A stretch of 38,442 nucleotides of DNA from Subtercola vilae (lineage in GTDB: Bacteria; Actinomycetota; Actinomycetes; Actinomycetales; Microbacteriaceae): the NCBI RefSeq assembly GCF_004923255.1, contig NZ_QYRT01000037.1, positions 1 through 38,442 on the forward strand, given 5' to 3'. The position numbers and the translations under genes were made by a program. The stretch's first letter is position 1; each line of letters starts with the position of its first letter. The notes under the pieces were generated by a model. It did no database searches, was not told where the DNA came from, and saw nothing but the letters and a program-made list of their open reading frames with translations. Shown here piece by piece: positions 7,119 to 38,440 of this stretch.

Positions 7119-8744
7119 TCAGGCGCCGAGGGCGCCGTCGACGATGCGCTTGGCCTCGGCCTGCACCTCTTTGAGGTGCTTGGGGCCGAGGAAGGATTCG
7201 GCGTAGATCTTGTAGACGTCTTCGGTGCCGGAGGGACGCGCGGCGAACCAGGCGTGGTCGGTGGTGACCTTCACGCCGCCCACGGCCGCGTCGTTGCCCG
7301 GAGCTCGGCTGAGCTTCGCGGTGATGGGCTCGCCGGCGAGGGTGTCGGCGGGAATGTCGTCGCCATCGAGCTTGCCGAGCTGGGCTTTCTGCGCCTTCGT
7401 GGCCGCGGCATCCACTCGCTCGTAGACCGGGTCGCCGAACTTCTCGACCAGGTCGGCGTAGTGCTGCGAGGGCGTTTTGCCGGTCACCGCGAGAATCTCC
7501 GAGGCGAGCAGGGCGAGGATGATGCCGTCTTTGTCGGTGGTCCATACGCTGCCGTCGAACCGCAGGAACGACGCGCCGGCCGACTCCTCGCCGCCGAACG
7601 CCACGCTGCCGTCGATGAGCCCGGGCACGAACCACTTGAAGCCCACCGGCACCTCCCAGAGGCGGCGCCCGAGCGATGCGGCGACCCGGTCGATCATGGT
7701 GCTCGAGACCAGGGTCTTGCCGATGGCGGCGTCTGCTCGCCAGCCCGTACGGTGCGTGTACAGGTACTGGATGGCCACGGCAAGGTAGTGGTTGGGGTTC
7801 ATGATGCCCGAGTCGGGCGTGACGATGCCGTGCCGGTCCGCATCCGCATCGTTGCCGGTTGAAATGTCATAGGCGTCTTTGTTGGCGACAAGTGAGGCCA
7901 TGGCGTAGGGCGACGAGCAGTCCATGCGGATCTTGCCGTCCCAGTCGAGCGTCATGAACGCCCACTGCGGGTCGACGACAGTGTTGACGACGTCGAGGTT
8001 GAGGCCGTAGCGCTCGCCGATCAGCTCCCAGTACTCGACGCTCGCGCCGCCCAGCGGGTCAGCGCCGATGTGGATGCCCGACTCGGCGATCTTCGTCATG
8101 TCGATGACCCGCGACAGGTCGCTCACATAGTTCTCGCGAAAATCGTACGTATCGGTGGGCTGGGCCTCGCCCCGCAGCACGTCGACGAGGCCGGCCGCGA
8201 TGATGTCGTTCGCGCGGTTCGCGATCCAGCTCGTTGCGTCGGAATCGGCCGGGCCGCCGTGTGGCGGGTTGTACTTGAAGCCGCCGTCGCGCGGGGGGTT
8301 GTGGCTCGGGGTGATGACGATGCCGTCGGCCTGGTCGCTGTGGCCGGCCTCGGCGTGGTTGTAGCGGAGGATCGCGTGCGAGACCGCGGGCGTGGGGGTG
8401 TACGAGCCGCGGGAGTCGGTCCACACCGTCACTCCGTTCGCGCTCAGCACCTCGAGCGCGGTGTCTTCGGCGGGCTTCGACAGCCCGTGCGTGTCGCGCC
8501 CGATGAACAGCGGGCCGGTGATGCCCTGCACGGCACGGTACTCCACGATGGCCTGCGTGATGGCCAGGATGTGGTTCTCGTTGAAGGCGGTGTCAAGCGA
8601 TGACCCGCGGTGCCCGCTCGTACCGAAGATGACCTTCTGCTCGGGGTTCGTCACGTCGGGCGTGAGCTCGTAGTACGCCCCCACGAGAGCGTCGATGTCG
8701 ACCAGGTCTTCGGGGAGGGCCTGCAGCCCGGCGCGCTCGTTCAT
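7119..8744 (-). CDS. pgm: Phosphoglucomutase (alpha-D-glucose specific)
   Basis: This 541-residue enzyme interconverts glucose 1-phosphate and glucose 6-phosphate and feeds glycogen, UDP-glucose and wall-polymer synthesis in the cytoplasm. The start region FGTSGHRG (40-47) is typical of the phosphohexomutase N-terminus. The phosphoserine loop is TPSHNPP with Ser147; the Mg2+ loop is [10 protein letters not shown] at about 297-306; the sugar-specificity loop is GGEESAG at 384-390. C-terminal residues [13 protein letters not shown] form the phosphate-binding site. The length agrees with the bacterial Pgm family that has the CMP/PMM-unlike order used by E. coli Pgm. The ATG at 8744 is followed by a normal N-terminus. 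No operon partner on this strand. Confidence 0.95.
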
Positions 8745-8931
8745 GTGTCCAGTCTGGCACCTCGGCGGGCGTCTTCTGTAGTACTTGCGCGGGGGTTCGG
8801 GAGGGGTTTCAGCGTTGGAAACCCGGGTGCAGAGAATTCGGGAATCGGCGTAATGGAATGGGGGTCACGCACTCTCTTCTCTGTGGAGGCACACTTCGTG
8901 CCACCGAAATCGATCAGAAGAAGGATCCACC

Positions 8932-9288
8932 ATGAACAAGCCAACAAGCCGTGCCCGCCGGTTCGCCGCAGTGGGCTTCGCCGTACTCTCGCTCGCGGGG
9001 GTGTTCGCCGTCGGCGGCGCATCGGCGGCGAACGCGCAGGGTGCCATTGCGTGCGCGCGCAATTCAGAGGGAATCTGCCACGGGTACGGCTCGAGCGGCG
9101 GCGGCGACCCGTGGGTCGCAAACCTGTTCTACTCGGTCGACATAGTGGGCTATGACCACATCTACGCGCGCTCAGATGGTTCGCAGGTCACCTCCGCGTA
9201 CGCCGTCAACCTGTCGCACAACCTGCACTACCGCACGTGCTTCCCCGCCACGAGAGGTAAATCGAGCATCGCCATCTGCCAGGAGTGA
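8932..9288 (+). CDS. Small secreted four-cysteine protein, unknown function
   Basis: A 118-residue protein. Residues 1-35 form a clear Sec signal peptide (basic start, hydrophobic core, predicted cut after ASAANA). The mature part of about 83 residues has four cysteines at 41, 49, 103 and 116, enough for two disulfides, a GYGSSGGGDP turn and several aromatic residues (LFYSVDIVGYDHIYAR). A good ribosome site (AGAAGGA) precedes the ATG. I do not recognise the family; size and shape resemble secreted bacteriocin-like or inhibitor-like proteins but no specific motif supports that. It ends 19 bases before the prephenate dehydratase start, so the two could share a transcript. Confidence 0.7.
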   Translation: MNKPTSRARRFAAVGFAVLSLAGVFAVGGASAANAQGAIACARNSEGICHGYGSSGGGDPWVANLFYSVDIVGYDHIYARSDGSQVTSAYAVNLSHNLHYRTCFPATRGKSSIAICQE

Positions 9289-9307
9289 TCGCAGTAGGCT
9301 CAACTGC

Positions 9308-10312
9308 ATGTCAGCAGCGCCCGAAGAAGCCATCGAAGAAGCCGTAGCCGTAGCCGCCGCCTCGCAGAGCATCGCCGAAGTACCCGAGATCTACAGCTAT
9401 CTCGGCCCCACCGGCACGTTCACCGAGGCGGCGCTCGCACAGGTTCCCGAGGCGGTCGGCAAGGTGTGGCGGAGCGTCAACAACGTGGGCGAGGCGCTCG
9501 ACGATGTGACAAGTGGGCGGAGCGTCGCGGCGATGATCGCCATCGAGAACTCGGTCGAGGGCGGCGTGAGTGCCACCCAAGACGCGCTGGCGAACATCCC
9601 GAACCTGCGCATCATCGGCGAATACCTGGTGAAGGTGCAGTTCGCGCTGGTGGCCCGGCCCGGCATCGAGCTGAAAGACGTGCACGTGGTGAACGCGCAT
9701 CCGGTGGCGTATGCGCAGTGCCGCAACTGGCTCGAGGCGAACCTGCCGACGCACGGGCACATTCCGTCGACATCGAATGTGGCCAGTGCGTTGGCGTTGT
9801 TCGACAGCGACCTCGCCGACGCTGCCATCGCGCCCCCGCGCATCGTCGAGCACCACGATCTGCGGGTGCTCGCCGAGAACGTGGGCGACAACCAGAACGC
9901 CGTGACGCGGTTCGTGCTCGTGAGCCGCGCCGCCCGGCTGCCAGAGCCCACCGGGGCCGACAAGACCAGCCTCATCGTCGAGCTGCCCGAAGATCGCTCG
10001 GGCGCGCTGCTCGAGATGCTCGAACAGTTCTCGACGCGCGGGGTGAACCTGAGCCTGCTGCAGTCGCGGCCCATCGGCGACGCGCTCGGCCGCTACCGGT
10101 TCGTCATCGACGCCGACGGCCATGTTCTGGATGAACGTGTCGCCGACGCCCTGCTCGGGCTTCGACGGTTCAGCCCGAACGTCATCTTTCTCGGGTCGTA
10201 CCCGCGCGCCGACCGCGCTCCGGTGGAGTACATCGAGCGTTACGACGACGAGGTGTTCATCGAGGCGCGCGACTGGTTGCGCTCGCTCATTGCGGGCGAG
10301 CCGCAGGGCTGA
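9308..10312 (+). CDS. pheA: Prephenate dehydratase
   Basis: A 334-residue enzyme that decarboxylates and dehydrates prephenate to phenylpyruvate in phenylalanine synthesis. After an unusual Ala/Glu-rich extension of about 28 residues the catalytic domain begins with YSYLGPTGTFTE (29-40). Family signatures are IENSVEGGVSATQD (79-92) and the catalytic TRF at 200-202. A regulatory ACT domain follows from about 220 with GALLEMLEQFSTRGVNL and the phenylalanine-binding QSRP motif (252-255), so feedback inhibition by phenylalanine is expected. I chose the ATG at 9308: a longer open frame reaches back across the previous gene but encodes an unrelated Arg/Ser-rich sequence. The stand-alone arrangement (no fused chorismate mutase) is usual in actinobacteria. 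Confidence 0.93.
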   Translation: MSAAPEEAIEEAVAVAAASQSIAEVPEIYSYLGPTGTFTEAALAQVPEAVGKVWRSVNNVGEALDDVTSGRSVAAMIAIENSVEGGVSATQDALANIPNLRIIGEYLVKVQFALVARPGIELKDVHVVNAHPVAYAQCRNWLEANLPTHGHIPSTSNVASALALFDSDLADAAIAPPRIVEHHDLRVLAENVGDNQNAVTRFVLVSRAARLPEPTGADKTSLIVELPEDRSGALLEMLEQFSTRGVNLSLLQSRPIGDALGRYRFVIDADGHVLDERVADALLGLRRFSPNVIFLGSYPRADRAPVEYIERYDDEVFIEARDWLRSLIAGEPQG

Positions 10313-11565: not shown

Positions 11566-11600
11566 AAGACACAGGGTATGGCATCGCTAAGATTGTGCAG

Positions 11601-12878
11601 GTGATCGATCCAGTACTCTTGCGCGAAAACCCCGACACCATTAGGCGCTCCCAGGCCGCGAGGGGCGCGTCGACCGAGCTCGTCGACGAGGCATTGGCCG
11701 CCGACTCCGAGCGCCGCGCGGCCATCACCGAGTTCGAGAACCTGCGACAGGCGCAGAACAGTTTCGGCAAGCAGGTTGCGAAGGCCGCCCCGGCCGACAA
11801 GAAGGCGCTGGTAGCCGAAGCCCAGTCGATGGCCGCGGGCGTGAAGCTCGCCAACGAGCGGGTTCAGGATGCCCAGGCCGAGTTCGACCGCCTCGTCGGA
11901 TCCATCGCGAACCCCATCATCGACGGCGTTCCGGCCGGCGGCGAAGAGAACTTCGTCACTCTGCGCGAGGTCGGCACCCGGCCCGAGTTCGACTTCGAGC
12001 CGCGCGACCACGTCGAGCTAGGCGAGCTGCTCGGCGCCTTCGATCTGCAGCGCGGAGCCAAGGTCAGCGGCGCGCGCTTCTACTTTCTCACCGGCATCGG
12101 CGCCCGCCTCGAGCTCGCGCTCATGAACCTCGCACTGCAGAAGGCGCTCGACTACGGCTTCACGCCCATGATCACGCCCACCCTCGTGCGCCCCGAGATC
12201 ATGCGCGGCACCGGTTTTCTGAACGAGCACGCCGACGAGATCTACTACCTTCCGGCCGACGACCTGTACCTCACCGGTACGAGCGAGGTGGCGCTCGCGG
12301 GGTTCCACGCCGACGAGATTCTCGACCTCACCGACGGACCCTACCGGTACGCCGGTTGGTCGACGTGCTACCGCCGTGAGGCCGGTTCTGGCGGAAAAGA
12401 CACCCGGGGCATCCTGCGCGTTCACCAGTTCAACAAGCTTGAGATGTTCACATATGTACTGCCCGAAGAGGCAGAAGCCGAACATCTGCGTCTCGTCGGC
12501 TACCAAGAGGAGCTGCTCACCTCGCTCGGCCTCAGCTACCGCGTCATCGACGTGGCCGCGGGCGACCTCGGCTCGTCTGCCGCGCGCAAGTACGACATCG
12601 AGGCGTGGGTTCCCACGCAGGGCACTTTTCGCGAGCTCACCTCGACGTCGAACTGCACCACATACCAGGCACGGCGACTGGATGCCCGGTACCGCACCGA
12701 ATCGGGCAAAACCGCTCCCGTCGCCACCCTGAACGGCACCCTCGCCACCACGCGCTGGATCGTGGCGCTGCTCGAGACCCACCAGCAGGCCGACGGATCG
12801 GTCGTGGTTCCCGAGGTGCTCCGCCCGTACCTCGGCGGCCTCGAGGTCATGACCCCGCTGAACGGGCGGCGGCCGTGA
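11601..12878 (+). CDS. serS: Seryl-tRNA synthetase
   Basis: A 425-residue class II synthetase that charges tRNA-Ser (and tRNA-Sec where present). Residues 1-105 are the tRNA-binding coiled-coil arm, with regular heptads through [17 protein letters not shown]. Catalytic motif 2 includes [18 protein letters not shown] and HQFNKLEMF; motif 3 reads [15 protein letters not shown] near the end. [13 protein letters not shown] carries the serine-pocket residues. I chose the GTG at 11601, giving [10 protein letters not shown], the usual start of this family; another GTG lies six bases upstream. The stop overlaps the following HAD gene start by four bases (GTGA), which suggests translational coupling. 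A tRNA-Ser(UGA) gene lies at 19073 in the same window. Confidence 0.95.
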
Positions 12879-13723
12879 GTGCGGCGGCTTCGGTCGGCGC
12901 TGGCTCCGCCGGGCATCCGGTGACCGATCGCTGGCTCGTCGCGCTCGACATCGACGGCACGATTCTGCACGAAGACGGCTCGATCGCCGAGGCCGTCATC
13001 GACCAGGTCGCCCGCCTCACCGGGCTCGGTCACGAGGTCATGCTCGCCACCGGGCGTTCGGTTGCCGCGACCCTGCCCGTGCTCGACCTGCTCGGCATCA
13101 CGCCCACCTACGTAGTGTGCTCGAACGGCGCCATCACCCTGCAGCGCGACACCGACGCGCCCCTCGGCTACCGCCGCGAGATCGTCGAGACCTTCAACCC
13201 GGGCGCCGTGCTCACCCAGATTCACCAGCACCTCGCCAGCGCGCACTACGCCGTCGAAGACGAAGAGGGCTACTTTCGCTACACCGGCGACTTTCCGAGC
13301 GGCTCGATGGGCGTCGGCGGCGAGCAGGTCAGCTTCGAAGACCTGCTCGAGATCGACGCCACCCGCGTCGTGGTCATCTCGCCCGGGCACGACATGGAAG
13401 ACTTTCTCGCCATCGTCGAGACCATGGGCCTGCACCGCGTCTCGTACTCTGTCGGCTGGACCGCCTGGCTCGACATCGCCCCCGACGGCGTCAACAAGTC
13501 GACCTCGCTCGAGCGGGTGCGGGCGCTCCTCGACATCCCTGCCTCCCGCGTTCTGGCGGCCGGCGATGGGCGCAACGACATCGAGATGCTGCTCTGGGCC
13601 GGCGTTTCGGGCCGGGCTGTGGCCATGGGGCAGGCGCCCGATGACGTGCTCGCCGTCGCCACCGAGGTCACCGGAACGATCTATGACGACGGCTTGGCGC
13701 AGGCGTTGGCGCGGTTGGTGTAG
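12875..13723 (+). CDS. HAD-superfamily (Cof-type, class IIB) phosphatase
   Basis: A 282-residue cytoplasmic phosphohydrolase. All four HAD motifs are visible: ALDIDGTI with nucleophile Asp25 and acid Asp27; ATGRS with the motif II residue at about 58; the motif III lysine in [10 protein letters not shown]; and [10 protein letters not shown] in motif IV. The cap inserted between motifs II and III is the large alpha/beta C2 type of Cof/YbjI proteins that act on sugar phosphates or nucleotides. The GTG start overlaps the serS stop, so it is probably co-translated. Its last 70 bases occur a second time at 15482-15547 (see that entry). Confidence 0.88.
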
Positions 13724-13730
13724 TCGCTCC
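13658..13730 (+). repeat. Source copy of duplicated HAD gene end
   Basis: The 3' end of the HAD coding sequence and its first bases after the stop. The first 35 bases (13658-13692) are identical to 15482-15516; the rest aligns with short deletions and substitutions. The offset of 1824 bases equals the distance between the first two propeller genes, which marks the left edge of a tandem duplication. Confidence 0.9.
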
Positions 13731-13758
13731 CGCACCAGTCGGTTCTGCGCAACGAGGG

Positions 13759-13792
13759 TTGAGGTTTGCTCGATACATGAGCTAAGCTCACC
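13759..13792 (+). promoter_or_regulatory. Promoter/operator of propeller gene 1
   Basis: TTGAGG (13759-13764) and TAAGCT (13783-13788), 18 bases apart, make a plausible -35/-10 pair. The -10 lies inside TGAGCTAAGCTCACC (13778-13792), whose core TGAGC-TAA-GCTCA is a perfect dyad. Related 15-base elements stand before the other two paralogues. A repressor or alternative sigma factor could read it; that is inference. Confidence 0.55.
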
Positions 13793-13848
13793 GATGACCT
13801 GAAGTCTCCAGTGACTTTGACACGGGTCGACACTCGAAAGGTTTCATC

Positions 13849-15348
13849 GTGCGTAAACGCTCCCTTCTCGCTGGCTCTGCTGTGGCAGTGCTGGTATGCA
13901 TGTGCACCGCAACCGCGGCGACTGCGACCCAGGTCGTCATCGATCCTCTCGTTTCGCTCGGTGCAGGCTCCGTTCCGCGCAGCATCGCGGTGGGGCCCAA
14001 CGGGGAGTTCTACACGGCGAACTATGGCGCTGGCACGGTGACCGGGTTCAATGCATCCGGTGCATCGCTGAACAATGCGACGATTTCGTTGGGCGGCGGC
14101 GCCGCGCCGAGAGCCATTGCCCGTGACAGCTTCGGTGCCCTCTGGATAGCAGATGCGGGCACCGCATCGGTTTCGCGGTACGTGCCAGGCGAGCCGAGCG
14201 CGTCGACGTACTCGCTTGGTGGAACCCGAGCCCCTGGGGCGGTCGCAGTCGACCACTCCAGCACCGCGTCTGCAGACACTGTCTATGCGGCTGACTCGGT
14301 TGGCAACTCCATTTGGGAGGTGACCCAGTCGGGCGGTTTGATATCACCCATCTCACAGTTCGCAACCCTTGCCGCGGGCGCCTTGCCGAAAGGTATCGTC
14401 ACCGATTCGATGGGCAACGTCTACACGGCCAACTCGGGAACAAGCACCGTCTCGAAGATCACCCCGGGGGGAGTGGTTACCGACAAATTCGCCGAATTCT
14501 CGCCCGGGGACGGGCCGGATGCGATCACTATTGACAGCCACGGCATTCTGTATGTGGCTAACTACGTGGCGGGAACGGTCGCGAAGGTCGACTCGACCAA
14601 GCCCGCGGGTGCGAACGTGGTTGGCACTTTCACCCTGGCTCCAGACGCTCACCCGCTGGGAATCACGGTCGATATGCATGACAACGTCTACGTCAGTAAT
14701 TCGGGCCCGAACACCGTGAGCATGATTCCGGCTGGCAGCAACAGCTCGCCCCTGACGATCTTGACTCTCCCGAACAACGCAGGGGCGTCTGGCATTGTAG
14801 TTTCGTCGACCAACACGCTATTGGTCACCGGGTTCGGCAACAACACCGTCACATCACTCGACCTGTCGACGAGCATCACGACGACTTCGCTGACGAGTGC
14901 AACTGTCGGCAAGGCATTCACGCAGACCATCACGGCGACGGGTGTCGACCCCATCACCTTCGCCTCGACTGACCTGCCGTCATGGCTCACACTCTCCGCC
15001 GACGGCACGCTGAGCGGCACGCCGACGGCCGATGGCGCTTACTCCTTCTCGGTTACGGCTACCGGTCCCACCGGCTCAAGCATTTCGAAGAACTACACCA
15101 TCGAAGTGGCAGCCGTGAACACCGGGGGTGGTACCGGCGGTACTGGGGCACCCGCGGGTGGAACGGGCGCCGGTAGCGGAAATGGCGCTGGCACAGGCGG
15201 TAGTGGCGCGACTGCGACTCTGGCCCACACGGGAACATCGGGCCCGACGCTCGCCGGTTTCGCCGGCACCGCAGCCGCCATCATGGCTATCGGCCTTGCC
15301 TTGACTTCATTTCGCCGTCGGCTCTCCCTGCAGCGCAACTCGCGCTGA
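13849..15348 (+). CDS. LAHTG-anchored surface beta-propeller protein, paralogue 1
   Basis: A 499-residue predicted wall-anchored protein. Residues 1-27 form a signal peptide. Residues about 30-335 contain repeated NHL/YncE-like blades with motifs such as GPNGEFYTANYG, DSMGNVYTANSG and DSHGILYVANY. An Ig-like domain of the putative He_PIG type follows (about 340-424, with DLPSWLTLSADGTLSGTP). Next are a Gly/Thr/Ala-rich linker (about 425-457) and a sorting signal: LAHTG at 458, a hydrophobic helix and a basic tail (FRRRL). LAxTG is the motif preferred by class E sortases of actinobacteria; no sortase gene is in the window. The ligand is unknown; NHL and YncE propellers usually bind protein, carbohydrate or nucleic acid. 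GTG start with GAAAGG upstream. Confidence 0.85.
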   Translation: MRKRSLLAGSAVAVLVCMCTATAATATQVVIDPLVSLGAGSVPRSIAVGPNGEFYTANYGAGTVTGFNASGASLNNATISLGGGAAPRAIARDSFGALWIADAGTASVSRYVPGEPSASTYSLGGTRAPGAVAVDHSSTASADTVYAADSVGNSIWEVTQSGGLISPISQFATLAAGALPKGIVTDSMGNVYTANSGTSTVSKITPGGVVTDKFAEFSPGDGPDAITIDSHGILYVANYVAGTVAKVDSTKPAGANVVGTFTLAPDAHPLGITVDMHDNVYVSNSGPNTVSMIPAGSNSSPLTILTLPNNAGASGIVVSSTNTLLVTGFGNNTVTSLDLSTSITTTSLTSATVGKAFTQTITATGVDPITFASTDLPSWLTLSADGTLSGTPTADGAYSFSVTATGPTGSSISKNYTIEVAAVNTGGGTGGTGAPAGGTGAGSGNGAGTGGSGATATLAHTGTSGPTLAGFAGTAAAIMAIGLALTSFRRRLSLQRNSR

Positions 15349-15354
15349 CTGAGG

Positions 15355-15384
15355 CGCTGGGTCCGCCTGCTTCCGGGCCCAGCG
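15355..15384 (+). terminator. Hairpin after propeller gene 1
   Basis: CGCTGGG (15355-15361) pairs with CCCAGCG (15378-15384), seven GC-rich pairs starting six bases after the stop. There is no T-run, as is common in actinobacteria. Confidence 0.5.
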
Positions 15385-15481
15385 TGCCCCACGCGATTCT
15401 GCTTACCGCATGAATGCCGCCCCCGGCTCGACGGCGCACCACGACCCTGTGCTCGAATGACAACCCGCGCATTTCTCTGTG

Positions 15482-15547
15482 GCCACCGAGGTCACCGGAA
15501 CGATCTATGACGACGGTCAGGCGCAGGCGCGGTTGGCGTAGCGCTCC
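15482..15547 (+). repeat. Duplicated remnant of the HAD gene 3' end
   Basis: A copy of the end of the HAD coding sequence (13658-13730), here cut off from any gene: the first 35 bases are identical, then two 3-base deletions and a few substitutions. It stands between propeller genes 1 and 2 and was evidently carried along when a 1.8-kb unit (HAD tail plus propeller gene) was duplicated in tandem. The rest of 15385-15658 shows no gene. Confidence 0.9.
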
Positions 15548-15652
15548 TCGGTCGTCTTCTCGCGGCCTTCTTGCTGAATTGCCGCCGACTCGGCTGAGGT
15601 TCGTCTTTCTACACGGGCTCCGGATGATCGGTATGGCGCTTCATCGTAATAC

Positions 15653-15667
15653 TGAGTTATGCTCATC
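15653..15667 (+). promoter_or_regulatory. Conserved 15-base element before propeller gene 2
   Basis: TGAGTTATGCTCATC matches the elements at 13778-13792 and 17263-17277. It contains TATGCT (15658-15663) as a possible -10. That would place the transcript start at about 15670, which coincides with the ATG at 15671; the mRNA would then be leaderless. Confidence 0.55.
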
Positions 15668-15670
15668 CTC

Positions 15671-17191
15671 ATGAAACTTCTGCCCTTACTTACAGTGCCC
15701 CTCGTCTGCCTCGCCGTTCTGGGCGCTGCCGGATCAGCCTTCGGCGCCTCCGCGCAGCCGGTCGTGACCGACCCTCTCGTCACGGTTGGCGCGACAGCCC
15801 AACCGCGGGCGATCATCGCGGGCCCGAATGGGGAGTTCTATACCGCCAACTTCGGCGTTCCTTCGGTGACCGCGTTCGCGGGAGACGGCGGAGCCATTCC
15901 GGGCGACTCGTTCTCTGTTCCCGACGCAAGCTTTAGTAGCGTCGTTCGTAATAGCGCTGGTTTTCTCTATGCGGCAGATGTGGCGAACGGTAACATCGAC
16001 GTTTTCGTGCCCGGAATCGGCGTGGGGGTCCATTCGGTAGGAGCCGGCCACTACCCCGTGGCGATGGCGATAGCACCATCGAACACGATCTATTCGGTCA
16101 ACCAGGGTTCGAGCAGTACCGTGACCAGAATTGCGGCTGATGGAACCGGGACCCCGCTCTACGCATCCCTTGCGCCCGGGGCGAACCCCAAAGGCATCGT
16201 CACCGACGCCGCTGGCAATATCTACACGGCGAATTCTGGTGACAACTCGGTCTCGAAGATTGATACAACTGGAGCCACTCTCGTTGTCACGTACAGCATT
16301 GCTGGGCTTGGTTTGGGTGCGGCGCCTGACGCGATTGCCATCGATTCGCACGGCATTCTGTATGTGGCAAATTTCGGTGGTGACTCGGTGACCGCCATCG
16401 ACCCGAGCATTACGACCGGGTCGGCGATCGTCGCGACGTTCCCGCTTGGTGCTGGCGCAAAGCCGTCGGGCCTGGTCGTCGATTCGCATGACAATGTGTT
16501 TGTGGCCGACTCGGGCACCGCGTCGATCAGCGAGATCGCTGCGGGTTCCATCAATACCGCTGACGTCGTCCATACCTATACCGCCGCGGGTGCGAAGCCC
16601 TGGGCGCTCACCGTCTCGTCAGACAACAGGCTGCTGGTTGCCGATACCACGCTCGGCACCGTTTCGGCCCTCGATCTCAGCACCGTGGTCACGACGACCA
16701 CGCTTGGCTCGCTCACCGTCGGTACGCCGTTCACCGGCTCGCTGGCCGCTACCGGCCTCGGTGCCGTTGTGTTCACCAGCACCAATGCGCCCTCATGGCT
16801 GACTGTCACGCGTGACGGGCAGCTCAGCGGAACCCCGCCCACCGCCGGAACCTTCTCGTTTGCCGTGACCGCACGCACCCCGAACGGCGTCAGTGCCGCG
16901 CAGACGGTTACCTACACCGTCGCGGCGGCAGCGACGACCGGCACCCCGACACCCACTCCCACCCCGACCGCAACAACCTCGGGCACCACCATCGGCTCCG
17001 GTGGCGGCACGGGTGGCGCAGGAAGCGCCAGCGGTAACGGTGGAACGTCGACCGGCTCGAACTCGTCGCGCACCCTCGCGAGTACCGGCGCCGACGCCTC
17101 ACGCGCCGTAGCGTTCGGCGGCGGAGCCCTCGCGCTCCTCGCGGCAGGTGGGGCCGTCATGGCACTCCGCCGCCGCCGTCACTCCGTATAG
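15671..17191 (+). CDS. LASTG-anchored surface beta-propeller protein, paralogue 2
   Basis: A 506-residue paralogue of the preceding gene with the same domain order: signal peptide (MKLLPLLTVPLVCLAVLGAA, cut near AFGAS), propeller blades (GPNGEFYTANFG, DAAGNIYTANSG, DSHGILYVANFG), Ig-like domain (NAPSWLTVTRDGQLSGTP), a Thr-Pro then Gly/Ser linker, LASTG at 469, hydrophobic helix and RRRR tail. I chose the ATG at 15671: an ATG at 15659 falls in the likely -10 element and adds only four residues. No ribosome site precedes either codon, unlike paralogues 1 and 3. DNA identity to paralogue 1 is high in places (for example CACGGCATTCTGTATGTGGC in both), so the duplication is fairly recent. Confidence 0.85.
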   Translation: MKLLPLLTVPLVCLAVLGAAGSAFGASAQPVVTDPLVTVGATAQPRAIIAGPNGEFYTANFGVPSVTAFAGDGGAIPGDSFSVPDASFSSVVRNSAGFLYAADVANGNIDVFVPGIGVGVHSVGAGHYPVAMAIAPSNTIYSVNQGSSSTVTRIAADGTGTPLYASLAPGANPKGIVTDAAGNIYTANSGDNSVSKIDTTGATLVVTYSIAGLGLGAAPDAIAIDSHGILYVANFGGDSVTAIDPSITTGSAIVATFPLGAGAKPSGLVVDSHDNVFVADSGTASISEIAAGSINTADVVHTYTAAGAKPWALTVSSDNRLLVADTTLGTVSALDLSTVVTTTTLGSLTVGTPFTGSLAATGLGAVVFTSTNAPSWLTVTRDGQLSGTPPTAGTFSFAVTARTPNGVSAAQTVTYTVAAAATTGTPTPTPTPTATTSGTTIGSGGGTGGAGSASGNGGTSTGSNSSRTLASTGADASRAVAFGGGALALLAAGGAVMALRRRRHSV

Positions 17192-17198
17192 GGCATCG

Positions 17199-17235
17199 CA
17201 GCGATACGCGGCACTCCAGCTCCCGCGTGTCGCTG
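17199..17235 (+). terminator. Strong hairpin after propeller gene 2
   Basis: CAGCGA-t-ACGCGG (17199-17211) pairs with CCGCGT-g-TCGCTG (17223-17235): twelve pairs with one internal mismatch and an 11-base loop, eight bases after the stop. It probably ends the transcript of paralogue 2 before the promoter of paralogue 3. Confidence 0.65.
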
Positions 17236-17262
17236 TGTCAAACCCGAGAAAACCTCAGAACC

Positions 17263-17277
17263 AGAGATATGCTCACC
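17263..17277 (+). promoter_or_regulatory. Conserved 15-base element before propeller gene 3
   Basis: AGAGATATGCTCACC shares 12 of 15 positions with the element before gene 1, and includes TATGCT (17268-17273) as a possible -10. The distance to the start codon (52 bases) is close to that of gene 1 (56 bases), while gene 2 has lost this leader. No clear -35 box is visible. Confidence 0.5.
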
Positions 17278-17329
17278 CTCATCGGGGGGTCGACAGATAT
17301 CAGAGCAGTCAAGTTCAGGGGTTTCCACT

Positions 17330-19024
17330 ATGAATCGCAGATCATTGTTTTCCATTCCCGCCATCACGGCGCTGGTCGCACTCGGGTCGGTGGCCGCAGC
17401 CGCCAGTCCGATGGGTGGCGTCAGTGAACAGCCAAGAAGGGTCGCGCCAAGCGCGGCCCTTCTTGCGTATGTGGGGTCAGGCGCGTCGCCGCGGGCGATC
17501 GTCTCAACCGGGGGAGGTGGGTTCGTCACGGCCGATTACGCCACCAACGCCCTCAGCTTCTTCGGGGCCGACGGCACCCCGAACACAGTGGTCGGGGTGG
17601 GCGGTGTTGTCGGCCTGGGTGCCGACGCGCATCCGAAATCCGTCACCCGCACCGACGACGGAACGTTCTACACCGCGAACTGGGGCGCCCACAGCATCAG
17701 CCGGTTCCAGCCCGGCAGCGATTCAGCGCCGACGACGTTTGACCTGAAGCCGGGCACGAACCCCGCGGCACTCACCCACGACACGGCGGGCAACATCTTC
17801 TCGGCGAACACCATCGGTGACTCCGTCACCCAACTCGCCCCGGGTGGCGGCCTCACCGTGACCTTCGCCAGACTCGCAAACCTGTCGTGGCCAACCGACA
17901 TCGTGGCCGACAATCACGGCAACCTCTTCACCGCGAATTCTGGCACCGACACCGTCTCGAAGATCACCGGCACGGGCGTCGTGACCGACCGATTCGCCGT
18001 ACTCGATCCCTGGTCGCGCCCGACGGCCCTCGCCATCACCCCCGACGGCATGCTCTTCGTCGCCAACGCCGGCGAGAACATCGTGACCGAGTTCGACACC
18101 GCTGCCTCCGCGCCCGCCGCCGGCCTCAACACCTTCGCACTGCCCGACGGGTGCAGTCCCACCACCCTCATCTCCGACGCGCGCGGCAACATCTTCGTCG
18201 CCTGCCCGTCTACCCGAAGCGTCAGCATGATCCCCGCCGGTGCCTCCAGTGCCAGCTTGCCCGACACCATCCTCACCCTCCCTGCGTCGGTCGGCCTCGC
18301 GGGGCTGACCCTCACCCCCGACGGCACCCTGCTCGTCGTCGCCCCCGACCAATCGGCCGTCTACGCTCTGCCCCTCGCCCCCGTCATGACCACCTCAGAA
18401 TTGCCCGCGGCCACCGTCGGCACCCACTACGAAACCACCGTCTCTGCGAACGGGGTCGGTACCCTGTCGTTCACTGCTCCGGATGCCCTCCCGGCCGGCC
18501 TCGGCCTCGACGCCTCATCCGGAGTCATCTCGGGCACCCCCGCCCTCGCCACCACCTCGACGTTCACCGTGGTCGCCTCGAACCCCGTGGCGGCGTCAGC
18601 CCCGCAGCACTTCACCCTCACGGTGAACGCGGCCGCGGGCATCCAGACACCCACACCCACACCCACATCGACAGCACCCGCTGGCCCGACCGGAGCAGCA
18701 ACCCCGCCGCCAACACCCACCCCGTCGTCGGCCGGAGGCGGGGCCACTCCTGCCCCTTCGTCAACGTCAGGCACGGCTCCTTCTGGCGGAGCCGGAGCCC
18801 GAGCTGATGCAGATGCAGGCACGATCACAGGCGCAAGCGTCGCGACCCGCGACCGCGTTCTCACGGCCGCAGACGGCGCTGCCTCGGCCACCGCAACATC
18901 AGCTCTCGCCGGCACCGGGGCCAACGTGCTCATCACCGCCGTCGGTATCGCGCTCGCCGCGGCCCTGCTGGTGCTCGGGATGCTCGCACTCGTCTCCCGC
19001 GCACGCCGCCGCCGAATCGGCTAG
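17330..19024 (+). CDS. LAGTG-anchored surface beta-propeller protein, paralogue 3
   Basis: A 564-residue, more diverged paralogue. Signal peptide at 1-26 (cut near AAASP), propeller blades at about 45-345 (DNHGNLFTANSG, TPDGMLFVANAG, DARGNIFVACPS), Ig-like domain at about 350-435 (LPAGLGLDASSGVISGTP), a linker of about 85 residues rich in Thr-Pro then Gly/Ala/Ser, LAGTG at 526, a membrane helix and RARRRR tail. The linker is the longest of the three. AGGGG precedes the ATG. The gene is more GC-rich and more regular in codon use than paralogues 1 and 2, which fits an older duplicate. As with its sisters, ligand and role are unknown; surface adhesion or polymer binding are guesses. Confidence 0.85.
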   Translation: MNRRSLFSIPAITALVALGSVAAAASPMGGVSEQPRRVAPSAALLAYVGSGASPRAIVSTGGGGFVTADYATNALSFFGADGTPNTVVGVGGVVGLGADAHPKSVTRTDDGTFYTANWGAHSISRFQPGSDSAPTTFDLKPGTNPAALTHDTAGNIFSANTIGDSVTQLAPGGGLTVTFARLANLSWPTDIVADNHGNLFTANSGTDTVSKITGTGVVTDRFAVLDPWSRPTALAITPDGMLFVANAGENIVTEFDTAASAPAAGLNTFALPDGCSPTTLISDARGNIFVACPSTRSVSMIPAGASSASLPDTILTLPASVGLAGLTLTPDGTLLVVAPDQSAVYALPLAPVMTTSELPAATVGTHYETTVSANGVGTLSFTAPDALPAGLGLDASSGVISGTPALATTSTFTVVASNPVAASAPQHFTLTVNAAAGIQTPTPTPTSTAPAGPTGAATPPPTPTPSSAGGGATPAPSSTSGTAPSGGAGARADADAGTITGASVATRDRVLTAADGAASATATSALAGTGANVLITAVGIALAAALLVLGMLALVSRARRRRIG

Positions 19025-19072: not shown

Positions 19073-19157
19073 GGAGGGCTGTCCGAGTGGCCGATGGAGC
19101 CAGTCTTGAAAACTGGTGGGCAGAAATGTCTCGTGAGTTCGAATCTCACGCCCTCCG
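19073..19157 (+). tRNA. tRNA-Ser, anticodon UGA
   Basis: An 85-base class II tRNA. Acceptor arms GGAGGGC and GCCCTCC pair, with discriminator G at 19157. The anticodon stem CCAGT/ACTGG encloses the loop CTTGAAA with anticodon TGA at 19107-19109 (reads UCA and related serine codons). A long variable arm and the T-arm sequence GTTCGAATC follow. CCA is not encoded. It sits at the boundary between the surface-protein cluster and the accessory region. Confidence 0.95.
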
Positions 19158-19257
19158 CAGAAAAAATACCTGGTCAGAGAAAGATCTGTGCTGTTCGGGC
19201 CAACTCGGTTCGGGGGAGTGGTCGCGACGCCTCGAGTGCCGGTCACCGAAACGGCCT

Positions 19258-37138: not shown

Positions 37139-38440
37139 GTGAAACACGCCTACGACTCTGAAGCCATCGACCAGCTCCACTCCGACATCGACCTCGTCGC
37201 TCTGACGCGCGAAGGAGACACTCGGGCGTTCGCTGAACTCTGGGCGCGGCACGCTGGTGCTGGTCAAGCGTTTGCGCGAGGATTTTCGAGCTACGACGCA
37301 GAAGATCTCACTATCGAAGCGTTCTCGAACATTCTCGCTTCGGTGCGCGCCGGTGCTGGTCCGACGGCAGGGTTCCGCCCGTACCTATTGAGTACGATTC
37401 GCAATGTCGCGCGCAACTGGTCTCGAAAAGCCGACCCGATCACAACAGACGAACTTGACCACCTTGCCGACCCGGCCACCGAAGAGGCCGCTGAACTTGC
37501 GGCACTCGACAGCGGAATCACGGCCACCGCCTTCAGGTCGCTGCCGACCAGGTGGCAGGAGGTTCTCTGGTACTCCGAGGTCGAAGCGATGAAGCCACGG
37601 GAGATCGCACCGCTTCTGGGGATGTCTGCGAACTCGGTTTCTGCGCTCGTCATCCGCGCGAAAGCAGGGCTTCGCGCTGCCTGGGTTCAGGCGCATCTGA
37701 AGAAATCGCACGATCCCGCGTGCGCGGCCGTCGCCGGCTTCTTCGCCTCATACTCGCTCGGTAGCCTGGCGAAGAAGAACGTCGATGCGGTCGACCGGCA
37801 CCTCGCGGTGTGCGAGCGGGATTGCGTGATCGTGCTCGAGGAGGCCAGTCACGTCAGTTCGATGCTGGTACTGGTTCTACTGCCCCTTGTCACCGGTGTC
37901 GCCGGGGCCGGGGGATATCTGGCCTACACGCAAGCCGGCGCGCACGCGGCGGTGTCTGCTTCGCCCGTTTGGACCACCGGGTCGGTGCACGCCATCCCGG
38001 GCGGCTCGAGGGCCCACCTCGCTTCTGCGACCGTGAAGACCCCGGTGACCAGGGTGGGGCTCGTCGCCGGTATCGCCGTTGTCGCAGCGGTTGTGATCAT
38101 CGGGGCATCTGTGACGTTCGCGCTTATTCTCGGCAGCTCGGGCAGAGTGAAGACGGCCCCAGACGCTGGAGCCCCGGTGGCCATGCCCAGCCCGGAGTCG
38201 TCGCCGCTCGCCACAGCGATACCCGAGCCGGCGAGCACGCCCGCCGCCCCCGATGCGCCCGTGACCCCGCTCCCGACCGACGCGCCGGCTCAGAAGACGA
38301 CGCCGAGAATCAGCACCTACACGGTGCCCGTGTCGAACATCGATGCGCCCACGGCGGTGCCGCTCACCACCCCAGAAGTTGCGCCTGCGACGACCCTGCC
38401 GACCCCCCATCGGGCCTGCGCTGGGTCAGCACGGCGTTAA
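37139..38440 (+). CDS. ECF sigma factor fused to zinc-finger-like and membrane module
   Basis: A 433-residue composite protein. Residues 14-95 are sigma region 2 (ALTREGDTRAFAELWARHAG, DAEDLTIEAFSNIL, FRPYLLSTIRNVARNW) and about 128-185 region 4 (LPTRWQEVLWYSEVEAMKPREIAPLLGMS). A zf-HC2-like anti-sigma segment follows: Cys195, His221, Cys225 and Cys229, with CxxxC instead of the usual CxxC. Two membrane helices (about 243-262 and 306-332) and an extracellular Ala/Thr/Pro-rich tail (about 340-433) complete it. This matches the known actinobacterial sigma factors with fused membrane extensions (ECF52/53-like), so it may sense an envelope signal directly. The tail ends abruptly after a C6 run at 38403-38408; a one-base shift there leaves the frame open to the window edge. 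GTG start. Confidence 0.85.
   Translation: MKHAYDSEAIDQLHSDIDLVALTREGDTRAFAELWARHAGAGQAFARGFSSYDAEDLTIEAFSNILASVRAGAGPTAGFRPYLLSTIRNVARNWSRKADPITTDELDHLADPATEEAAELAALDSGITATAFRSLPTRWQEVLWYSEVEAMKPREIAPLLGMSANSVSALVIRAKAGLRAAWVQAHLKKSHDPACAAVAGFFASYSLGSLAKKNVDAVDRHLAVCERDCVIVLEEASHVSSMLVLVLLPLVTGVAGAGGYLAYTQAGAHAAVSASPVWTTGSVHAIPGGSRAHLASATVKTPVTRVGLVAGIAVVAAVVIIGASVTFALILGSSGRVKTAPDAGAPVAMPSPESSPLATAIPEPASTPAAPDAPVTPLPTDAPAQKTTPRISTYTVPVSNIDAPTAVPLTTPEVAPATTLPTPHRACAGSARR

Follow-up and report, generated by a model that had tools for sequence, protein, structure and literature searches.

A candidate diversifying surface-recognition locus of beta-propeller proteins, predicted to be anchored by class E sortase, in Subtercola

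Results

Three tandem genes encode propeller proteins with LAxTG motifs

We analysed a stretch of 38,442 bases from Subtercola vilae (contig NZ_QYRT01000037.1 of assembly GCF_004923255.1; hereafter the window) and focused on three complete open reading frames (ORFs), A, B and C, which lie in tandem on the plus strand between a HAD-type hydrolase gene and tRNA-Ser(TGA) (Table 1). We hold it likely, though by no means certain, that these genes form a diversifying surface-recognition locus whose products are predicted to be anchored by class E sortase. The genome that contains the window comprises 4.04 Mb in 103 contigs. A, B and C share one layout: a signal peptide, an NHL/Vgb-like propeller (the head), one immunoglobulin-like (Ig-like) domain, a low-complexity linker and an LAxTG motif. 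The N-termini, judged by eye, have a basic N-region, a hydrophobic core and small residues ahead of the mature part. Among Pfam models, NHL scored above its cut-off in all three proteins, SGL in A and B, and Vgb_lyase in A only; the matches above cut-off in the heads were to propeller families only, and no adhesive domain was found at the tip. AlphaFold predicted confident seven-bladed propellers for A (predicted local distance difference test, pLDDT, 96.5; predicted template modelling score, pTM, 0.93) and for C (pLDDT 94.3, pTM 0.90), and the fold of B was assigned from Pfam and the alignment. The Ig-like family He_PIG (PF05345) exceeded its Pfam cut-off only in C (45.1 bits); the domain is visible in the model of A and was placed in B from the alignment alone. 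The models of A and C contain one Ig-like domain and a linker, and the stalk domains are not repeated. Glycine makes up 44% of the linker of A.

The ORFs, Pfam matches and models thus bear out the initial annotation, which had read three tandem propeller, Ig-like, linker and LAxTG genes from the sequence and had proposed modelling the propellers. Of the span that it gave, 13658..19024, the end stands; the start falls within the HAD gene, and the array runs from 13849.

Table 1. Features of the array and its flanks (positions in the window)
Feature	Position	Strand	Details
serS, seryl-tRNA synthetase	11595..12878	+	conserved flank
HAD-type hydrolase (Hydrolase_3)	12605..13723	+	left flank; homologue in 12/12 Subtercola genomes
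Promoter-like element GAGCTAAGCTCA of gene A	13779..13790	+	58 bases before start codon
Gene A (alpha group)	13849..15348	+	GTG start; 499 amino acids; LAHTG
Gene A propeller	13936-14874		seven-bladed; residues 30-342
Gene A Ig-like domain	14875-15111		residues 343-421
Gene A C-terminus	15220-15234 (LAHTG)		36-residue Gly-rich linker; LAHTG; hydrophobic stretch; Arg-rich tail
Duplication scar, between A and B	15479..15547	+	second copy of HAD gene end (13655-13730)
Promoter-like element GAGTTATGCTCA of gene B	15654..15665	+	5 bases before start codon
Gene B (beta group)	15671..17191	+	ORF from 15659; 50-residue Thr-Pro/Gly linker; LASTG 17075-17089
Promoter-like element GAGATATGCTCA of gene C	17264..17275	+	54 bases before start codon
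Gene C (gamma group)	17330..19024	+	ATG start; 564 amino acids; LAGTG 18905-18919
Gene C linker			92 residues, Thr/Pro/Ser/Ala
tRNA-Ser (TGA)	19073..19158	+	right flank of array

The array occupies a conserved site and varies in copy number

We compared the site across 12 Subtercola genomes, the window's own and 11 relatives (G001 to G011). The order serS, HAD gene, array, tRNA-Ser(TGA) is conserved, and the number of array genes is zero in three genomes, one in five, two in two, three in one and at least four in one. In two of the genomes with no copy, G006 and G007, the tRNA gene lies some 200-240 bases past the HAD gene; in the third, G009, tRNA-Ser was not found in the 12 kb examined. G001, G002, G003, G004 and G008 carry one gene each, G005 and G011 two each, and the window's genome three. 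G010 carries the largest array, which is split over contigs and is of uncertain gene order.

Between A and B lies a second copy of the HAD gene end. It is identical to that end in 65 of 76 aligned columns and scores 95, compared with 28 for the best of 100 shuffles. The HAD ends of the 11 relatives score at most 58 against this scar, and the HAD gene of the window's genome is the most similar. On this sequence evidence we take the scar beside B to be a younger rearrangement.

Three groups of locus genes differ in linker and promoter spacing

At related loci the relatives hold 87 frames, 71 of them of suitable length, and our alignment (A3) joins 52 of these to the three window rows. The group tree was built from 20 proteins, with linker sequences included and the first gene of G010 left out; that gene was used in pieces for the head and stalk identities and the approximately unbiased (AU) tests described below. 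In this tree the locus genes cluster together, separate from six dispersed rows (support 93/95), and divide into three groups. The alpha group (97/98) joins A to the first or middle genes of G005, G010 and G011, the gamma group (100/96) joins C to the last genes of the same three genomes, and the beta group (80/87) joins B to the single-copy genes. Linkers are 36-56 residues long with 41-51% Gly in the alpha group, 40-54 residues of Thr-Pro with Gly in the beta group, and 70-98 residues rich in Thr-Pro in the gamma group. The paralogues had been described as differing in linker length and composition; they do, and each linker type recurs across species. We rejected a recent triplication of one gene, because A, B and C fall in different groups that are shared across species.

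Each group also has its own promoter-to-start spacing, which lay outside the tree data and agrees with the tree, as the linker type does. The promoter-like pattern GAGNTANNCTCA has three matches in the window, where 0.05 are expected, and occurs exactly upstream of 13 of the 14 full-length locus genes, with one mismatch in G002; it appeared in one of 2800 shuffled upstream regions. Its distance to the start codon is 58-62 bases in the alpha group, exactly 5 in all six beta genes and 51-54 in the gamma group. Because the pattern contains a -10-like box, TANNNT, and this element lies only 5 bases before the start, transcripts of the beta genes are probably leaderless. The first ATG of gene B lies within the shared element, so the second ATG, 15671, is the most likely start of B, rather than 15659. 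A regulon shared with the sortase was considered and rejected: one of the ten genomic sites lies inside the start of srtE, but the reversed control pattern gave 13 sites, and none of 11 srtE stretches of the relatives has an exact match. A further site near a dispersed propeller gene (C71, 10.6 kb) is on the opposite strand.

Head types differ widely, and one gene appears to combine two of them

We compared the heads of the 14 full-length locus genes and set types at 50% identity. Seven types resulted, with 29-46% identity between types and 53-90% within. In the window, identity is 43% between the heads of A and B, 37% between A and C, and 36% between B and C. The initial annotation had suggested one binding head displayed at different distances from the wall; this does not hold, since the heads are only 36-43% identical and come from different old groups, so that head and linker differ together. 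To judge from these comparisons, it should give way to a picture of several heads, each on a stalk typical of its group.

The first genes of G005, a genome in one contig, and G011 occupy the same position and have 37% identity in the head and 83% in the stalk at the protein level. Their DNA, compared in 100-base steps, is 77-93% identical upstream; identity falls to 36-63% in the head, returns to 67-83% in the stalk and is 56% in the step that spans the gene end. The heads of the second genes of the two arrays are 90% identical. The head of the G005 first gene is 62% identical to that of A and 67% to that of the G010 first gene, and its stalk is 61% identical to that of the G010 middle gene and 46-47% to those of A and the G010 first gene. 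In the head tree, the G005 first gene joins A and the G010 first gene (100/98), and a grouping of G005 with G011 was rejected (AU test, p = 5e-5). In the stalk tree, it joins G011 (99/98), and three alternatives were rejected (AU test, p = 0.0002-0.0009). Because head and stalk trees conflict, the G005 first gene appears to carry a head of one type on the stalk of another, joined by recombination within a tandem array. The G010 array is a surviving example of an array in which such recombination could occur, and the HAD-end scar that separates A from B points to rearrangement as well.

The genome encodes two class E sortases

The TIGR01167 sorting-signal model placed A and B above its cut-off and C below it in a genome search, and only B above it in a protein scan. 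The LAGTG, hydrophobic stretch and Arg tail of C were recognised by eye, and all 14 full-length locus genes, A, B and C included, end in LAxTG with an Arg-containing tail. We rejected the count of LPxTG_anchor matches as a list of substrates: at an expectation (E) value of 1 the model matched 14 of 14 control genomes, in nine of them above cut-off, and because weak matches also occur in control genomes they are not evidence of substrates. Of the 21 tails that it matched, 15 fit our regular expression, and all 15 are LAxTG.

In agreement with the initial annotation, no sortase matched on the window's contig. The genome-wide search that it had called for found four sortase genes elsewhere, two of which pass the NCBI class E model (237.0 and 218.6 bits, cut-off 160), so that an absence of any class E sortase, which it had named as telling against its reading, does not apply. 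The other two are one that passes the class F model and a diverged copy that passes no class model. The core class E sortase lies in a pabA/PASTA-type neighbourhood (gene labels by reading), and its GHY aligns with the Tyr taken as Tyr229 of Streptomyces SrtE1, the number being counted from Arg329 and from what we take to be Cys320 of SrtE1. The core enzyme thus retains the Tyr that has been proposed to recognise the Ala of LAxTG. A close match to this core-type sortase is found in 12 of 12 Subtercola genomes, its class being assigned in the window's genome only. Given the LAxTG signals and the class E sortases in the genome, A, B and C are probable class E sortase substrates anchored to the wall.

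The remaining sortase genes have distinctive settings. The class F sortase domain (C60, L003:1489-3129) is fused to a glycosyl hydrolase family 8 domain in one protein. The second class E sortase (C29, L020:6255-6986) adjoins a gene for a 997-residue LAHTG protein (7127-10120) with no Pfam match at E 0.01, and the two are likely a dedicated pair. The diverged sortase-like protein (C8, L022:8591-9442) has TLVTA in place of TLxTC, adjoins a PstB-like ATPase (names by reading) and is possibly an inactive sortase fold; G001, G003-G006, G009 and G011 hold partial matches to it (positions 1-106).

Relatives of the array genes and the neighbouring DNA

Five further propeller-Ig relatives occur in the window's genome, a layout assigned from the family profile and reading. 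Above Pfam cut-offs, both parts were found only in the relative on C74, He_PIG alone in those on C2 and C44, the propeller model alone in that on C71 at 124.6 kb, and nothing in that on C71 at 10.6 kb. Both C71 genes and the C44 gene encode LAxTG; the C2 protein ends in GSTGCWYWSGPCGL, and the C74 protein in a Gly-rich, Cys-containing tail. The C2 relative (L017:3965-5470) belongs to a propeller-Ig subfamily with no sorting signal, whose conserved tail, STGCW[YF]....CG[LF], has two Cys. Among the loci examined this subfamily was seen in nine of the 12 Subtercola genomes (besides L017, at L052/L157, L053, L058, L059, L060, L061, L062 and L064), the other three not having been searched.

With at most 10 candidates scored per genome, the family matched three of 150 Microbacteriaceae genomes at E 1e-30, all Subtercola, and 31 of 150 at E 1e-10, where many matches cover the Ig and sorting-signal half only. 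A strict restriction to the genus was rejected. The matches at E 1e-10 include G036, of another Microbacteriaceae genus, where two adjacent family frames of 595 and 491 residues lie at C2:221156-223941 (L206) and the second ends in LASTG; because of these matches, an architecture exclusive to Subtercola is not supported. The G036 pair is a possible parallel tandem.

Beyond the array, a stretch of G005 lying 0.5-0.9 kb past tRNA-Ser matches window positions 37535-37933 in translation. For this reason an insert of about 18 kb, from 19160 to about 37535, seems to follow tRNA-Ser in the window. Parts of the insert are lower in GC, and it encodes a MarR regulator, a GH120-type hydrolase, a sugar ABC transporter and a LacI regulator.

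The head most likely binds a ligand

Vgb is a soluble drug-resistance enzyme, and its seven-bladed fold is present in the models of A and C. Structural alignments to Vgb gave 15-18% sequence identity. Against the Vgb_lyase family (PF24684, cut-off 50 bits), A scored 55.4 and passes, and B (43.1) and C (45.8) fail. The catalytic His270 of Vgb was placed from alignment ranges, not residue by residue; the segment at this rough position contains a single His in B and none in A or C, and it lacks Glu in all three proteins. We therefore rejected membership of the Vgb family, since B and C fall under the cut-off and His270 has no conserved counterpart. No His, Glu, Cys, Trp or Arg column of the head reaches conservation in nine of 14 sequences, which speaks for binding rather than for a conserved enzyme. 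The D-A/B-C loop face is the usual ligand face of propellers. In the model, the third strand of blade 7 is the last before the chain leaves the propeller, and because of this the D-A/B-C face probably points outward from the wall. A candidate signal of diversifying selection on the outer face was dropped, as its p-value of 0.013, obtained while some columns contained a single sequence, became 0.0675 after filtering. Taken together, the sequence comparisons suggest that the most likely role of the head is to bind a ligand and not to act as an enzyme; the ligand would be a glycan or a surface protein, borne by neighbours, substrate or host.

The family scores, the His270 segment, the head columns and the low identity to Vgb all weigh against a surface enzyme, that is, a wall-anchored Vgb-like lyase or lactonase cutting a cyclic peptide or lactone in the manner of the published "fibrillar enzymes", and we consider this improbable. 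To a structural role we give about as little credence: the propellers would associate with one another or with wall polymers of the same cell, stiffening a coat or biofilm, with no foreign ligand. Six LAxTG proteins of propeller-Ig layout in one genome would suit such a glue, as would the part that SrtE and its substrates play in Actinoplanes morphogenesis (PMC13251363) and the pairing of a propeller with PKD in an archaeal S-layer protein (1l0q), but the presence or absence of the locus and the 29-46% identical head types at one site fit a changing partner better. Less probable still is a target or decoy for phages or bacteriocins, whose heads would vary as receptors do, with recombination aiding escape. 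The proteins are dispensable, copy-variable and head-swapping, with group-specific stalks, as this explanation would have it; however, no tie to phages was seen, though no search aimed at such a link was made, and purifying selection acts on the heads in the two closest pairs (ratio of nonsynonymous to synonymous substitution, dN/dS, 0.07 and 0.16).

That no head was exchanged, the mosaic being a misassembly or hidden paralogy with unequal rates, is in our view very unlikely. The mosaic gene sits in a one-contig genome; the head of its counterpart in G011 (H2) is found on its own stalk in the G010 middle gene and G011, the head of the mosaic itself (H1) is found on a different stalk in A and in the G010 first gene (two overlapping pieces), and DNA identity shifts along the gene as given above. 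The opposite view can point to the broken G010 array, to G010 and G011 matching contigs labelled as metagenome-assembled genomes, and to the stalk of A, which is 48% identical to that of G010 first and 46-47% to those of G005 and G011, only its Ig-like domain being closer (61%), and so is no clean second witness for the original H1 pairing. These last two points also count against the diversifying locus that we favour, and further points do the same. Only one clear chimera was found, and the groups for the AU tests were defined with the identities already known. The beta group has weak support, unlike the well-supported alpha and gamma groups. Variability of the outer face is not special to these heads, the difference being larger in 44 distant NHL control rows. 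The promoter-like pattern has no genome-wide excess over its reversed control (10 sites against 13). Lastly, the locus genes are dispensable, because three of the 12 genomes lack them.

Discussion

The reading that we favour, a diversifying surface-recognition locus, would work as follows. The product of each gene would be secreted, cleaved at LAxTG by class E sortase and joined to the cell wall, where the Gly-rich or Thr-Pro-rich linker and the Ig-like domain would hold the seven-bladed propeller off the wall, and the head would bind its glycan or surface protein. Duplication, loss and recombination between tandem copies or alleles at one site would change the number of heads and, by comparison with the one clear case, could join a head to another stalk. 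The suggestion that the proteins are surface receptors or adhesins is thus plausible, with evolutionary support from these sequences. We also put forward, tentatively and with more doubt than confidence, a cassette-like system: a single promoter-stalk-anchor framework at the serS/tRNA-Ser site would carry interchangeable seven-bladed propeller heads, with the tandem copies acting as a recombination reservoir.

The blades of these heads resemble those of designed Pizza proteins and of the Mycobacterium tuberculosis PknD sensor (1rwi), which matches our family profile at E 2.6e-32. The extracellular NHL domain of PknD is a six-bladed sensor on a kinase; the array proteins differ in having seven blades on a predicted wall anchor and no kinase. 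They differ from Vgb in that their heads have no identifiable counterpart of His270. We likened the Ig-like domain to He_PIG and to the adhesin SraP, a chain of which (4m03) matches profile positions 360-414 at E 5e-9; in the array it is a single copy, not a repeat. Among the features of fibrillar adhesins, the array proteins have the surface anchor, LAxTG, but neither a known adhesive domain at the tip nor repeated stalk domains.

The closest described proteins that we found are those of Firmicutes cluster 9, in which Vgb-like propellers were predicted on anchored stalked proteins as possible "fibrillar enzymes" (PMC9210967). Both sets carry an N-terminal Vgb-like domain (best structural match of cluster 9, 2Z2O) on an anchored stalk, and in both the function is ambiguous between binding and catalysis. 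Cluster 9, in the account given there, is from Firmicutes, has Flg_new stalk domains in the example shown and overlaps the Pfam family PSII_BNR (PMC9210967), whereas the array is tandem, from Actinomycetota, and has one Ig-like domain, a low-complexity linker and LAxTG. In the open-access literature, to which our search was confined, we found no actinobacterial LAxTG propeller array. The earlier suggestion that the combination had not been described before therefore stands for such an array and not for Vgb-like propellers on anchored stalks, which were already predicted (PMC9210967).

The staphylococcal sdr locus, encoding Clf-Sdr MSCRAMMs, has been presented as a fixed site with variable wall-anchored proteins and a proposed recombination hotspot (PMC8360574). 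The Subtercola site is similar in holding zero to at least four genes for anchored surface proteins at one conserved position. Its heads are propellers, unlike the N2N3 heads and SD repeats of sdr, neither of which was found in the sequences of A, B and C. That adhesin tips undergo domain shuffling is itself an established idea (PMC10952558). Streptomyces chaplins (PMC5148588) and SrtE-dependent Actinoplanes proteins (PMC13251363) share with the array an LAxTG signal and a class E sortase; as described in those reports, they are proteins of morphogenesis, chaplins and hydrophobic proteins, not propellers.

If the anchoring holds, class E sortase substrates would extend from morphogenesis proteins to propeller heads. 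The locus also provides a case in which recombination between heads and stalks can be read from sequence. If heads are indeed interchangeable at this site, they would decide what a given Subtercola strain encounters among neighbours, glycans or phages. The site offers a natural experiment, in which related environmental actinobacteria keep the position and the promoter element and vary the head and the copy number, and with three species lacking the array, its function would be testable by simple comparison.

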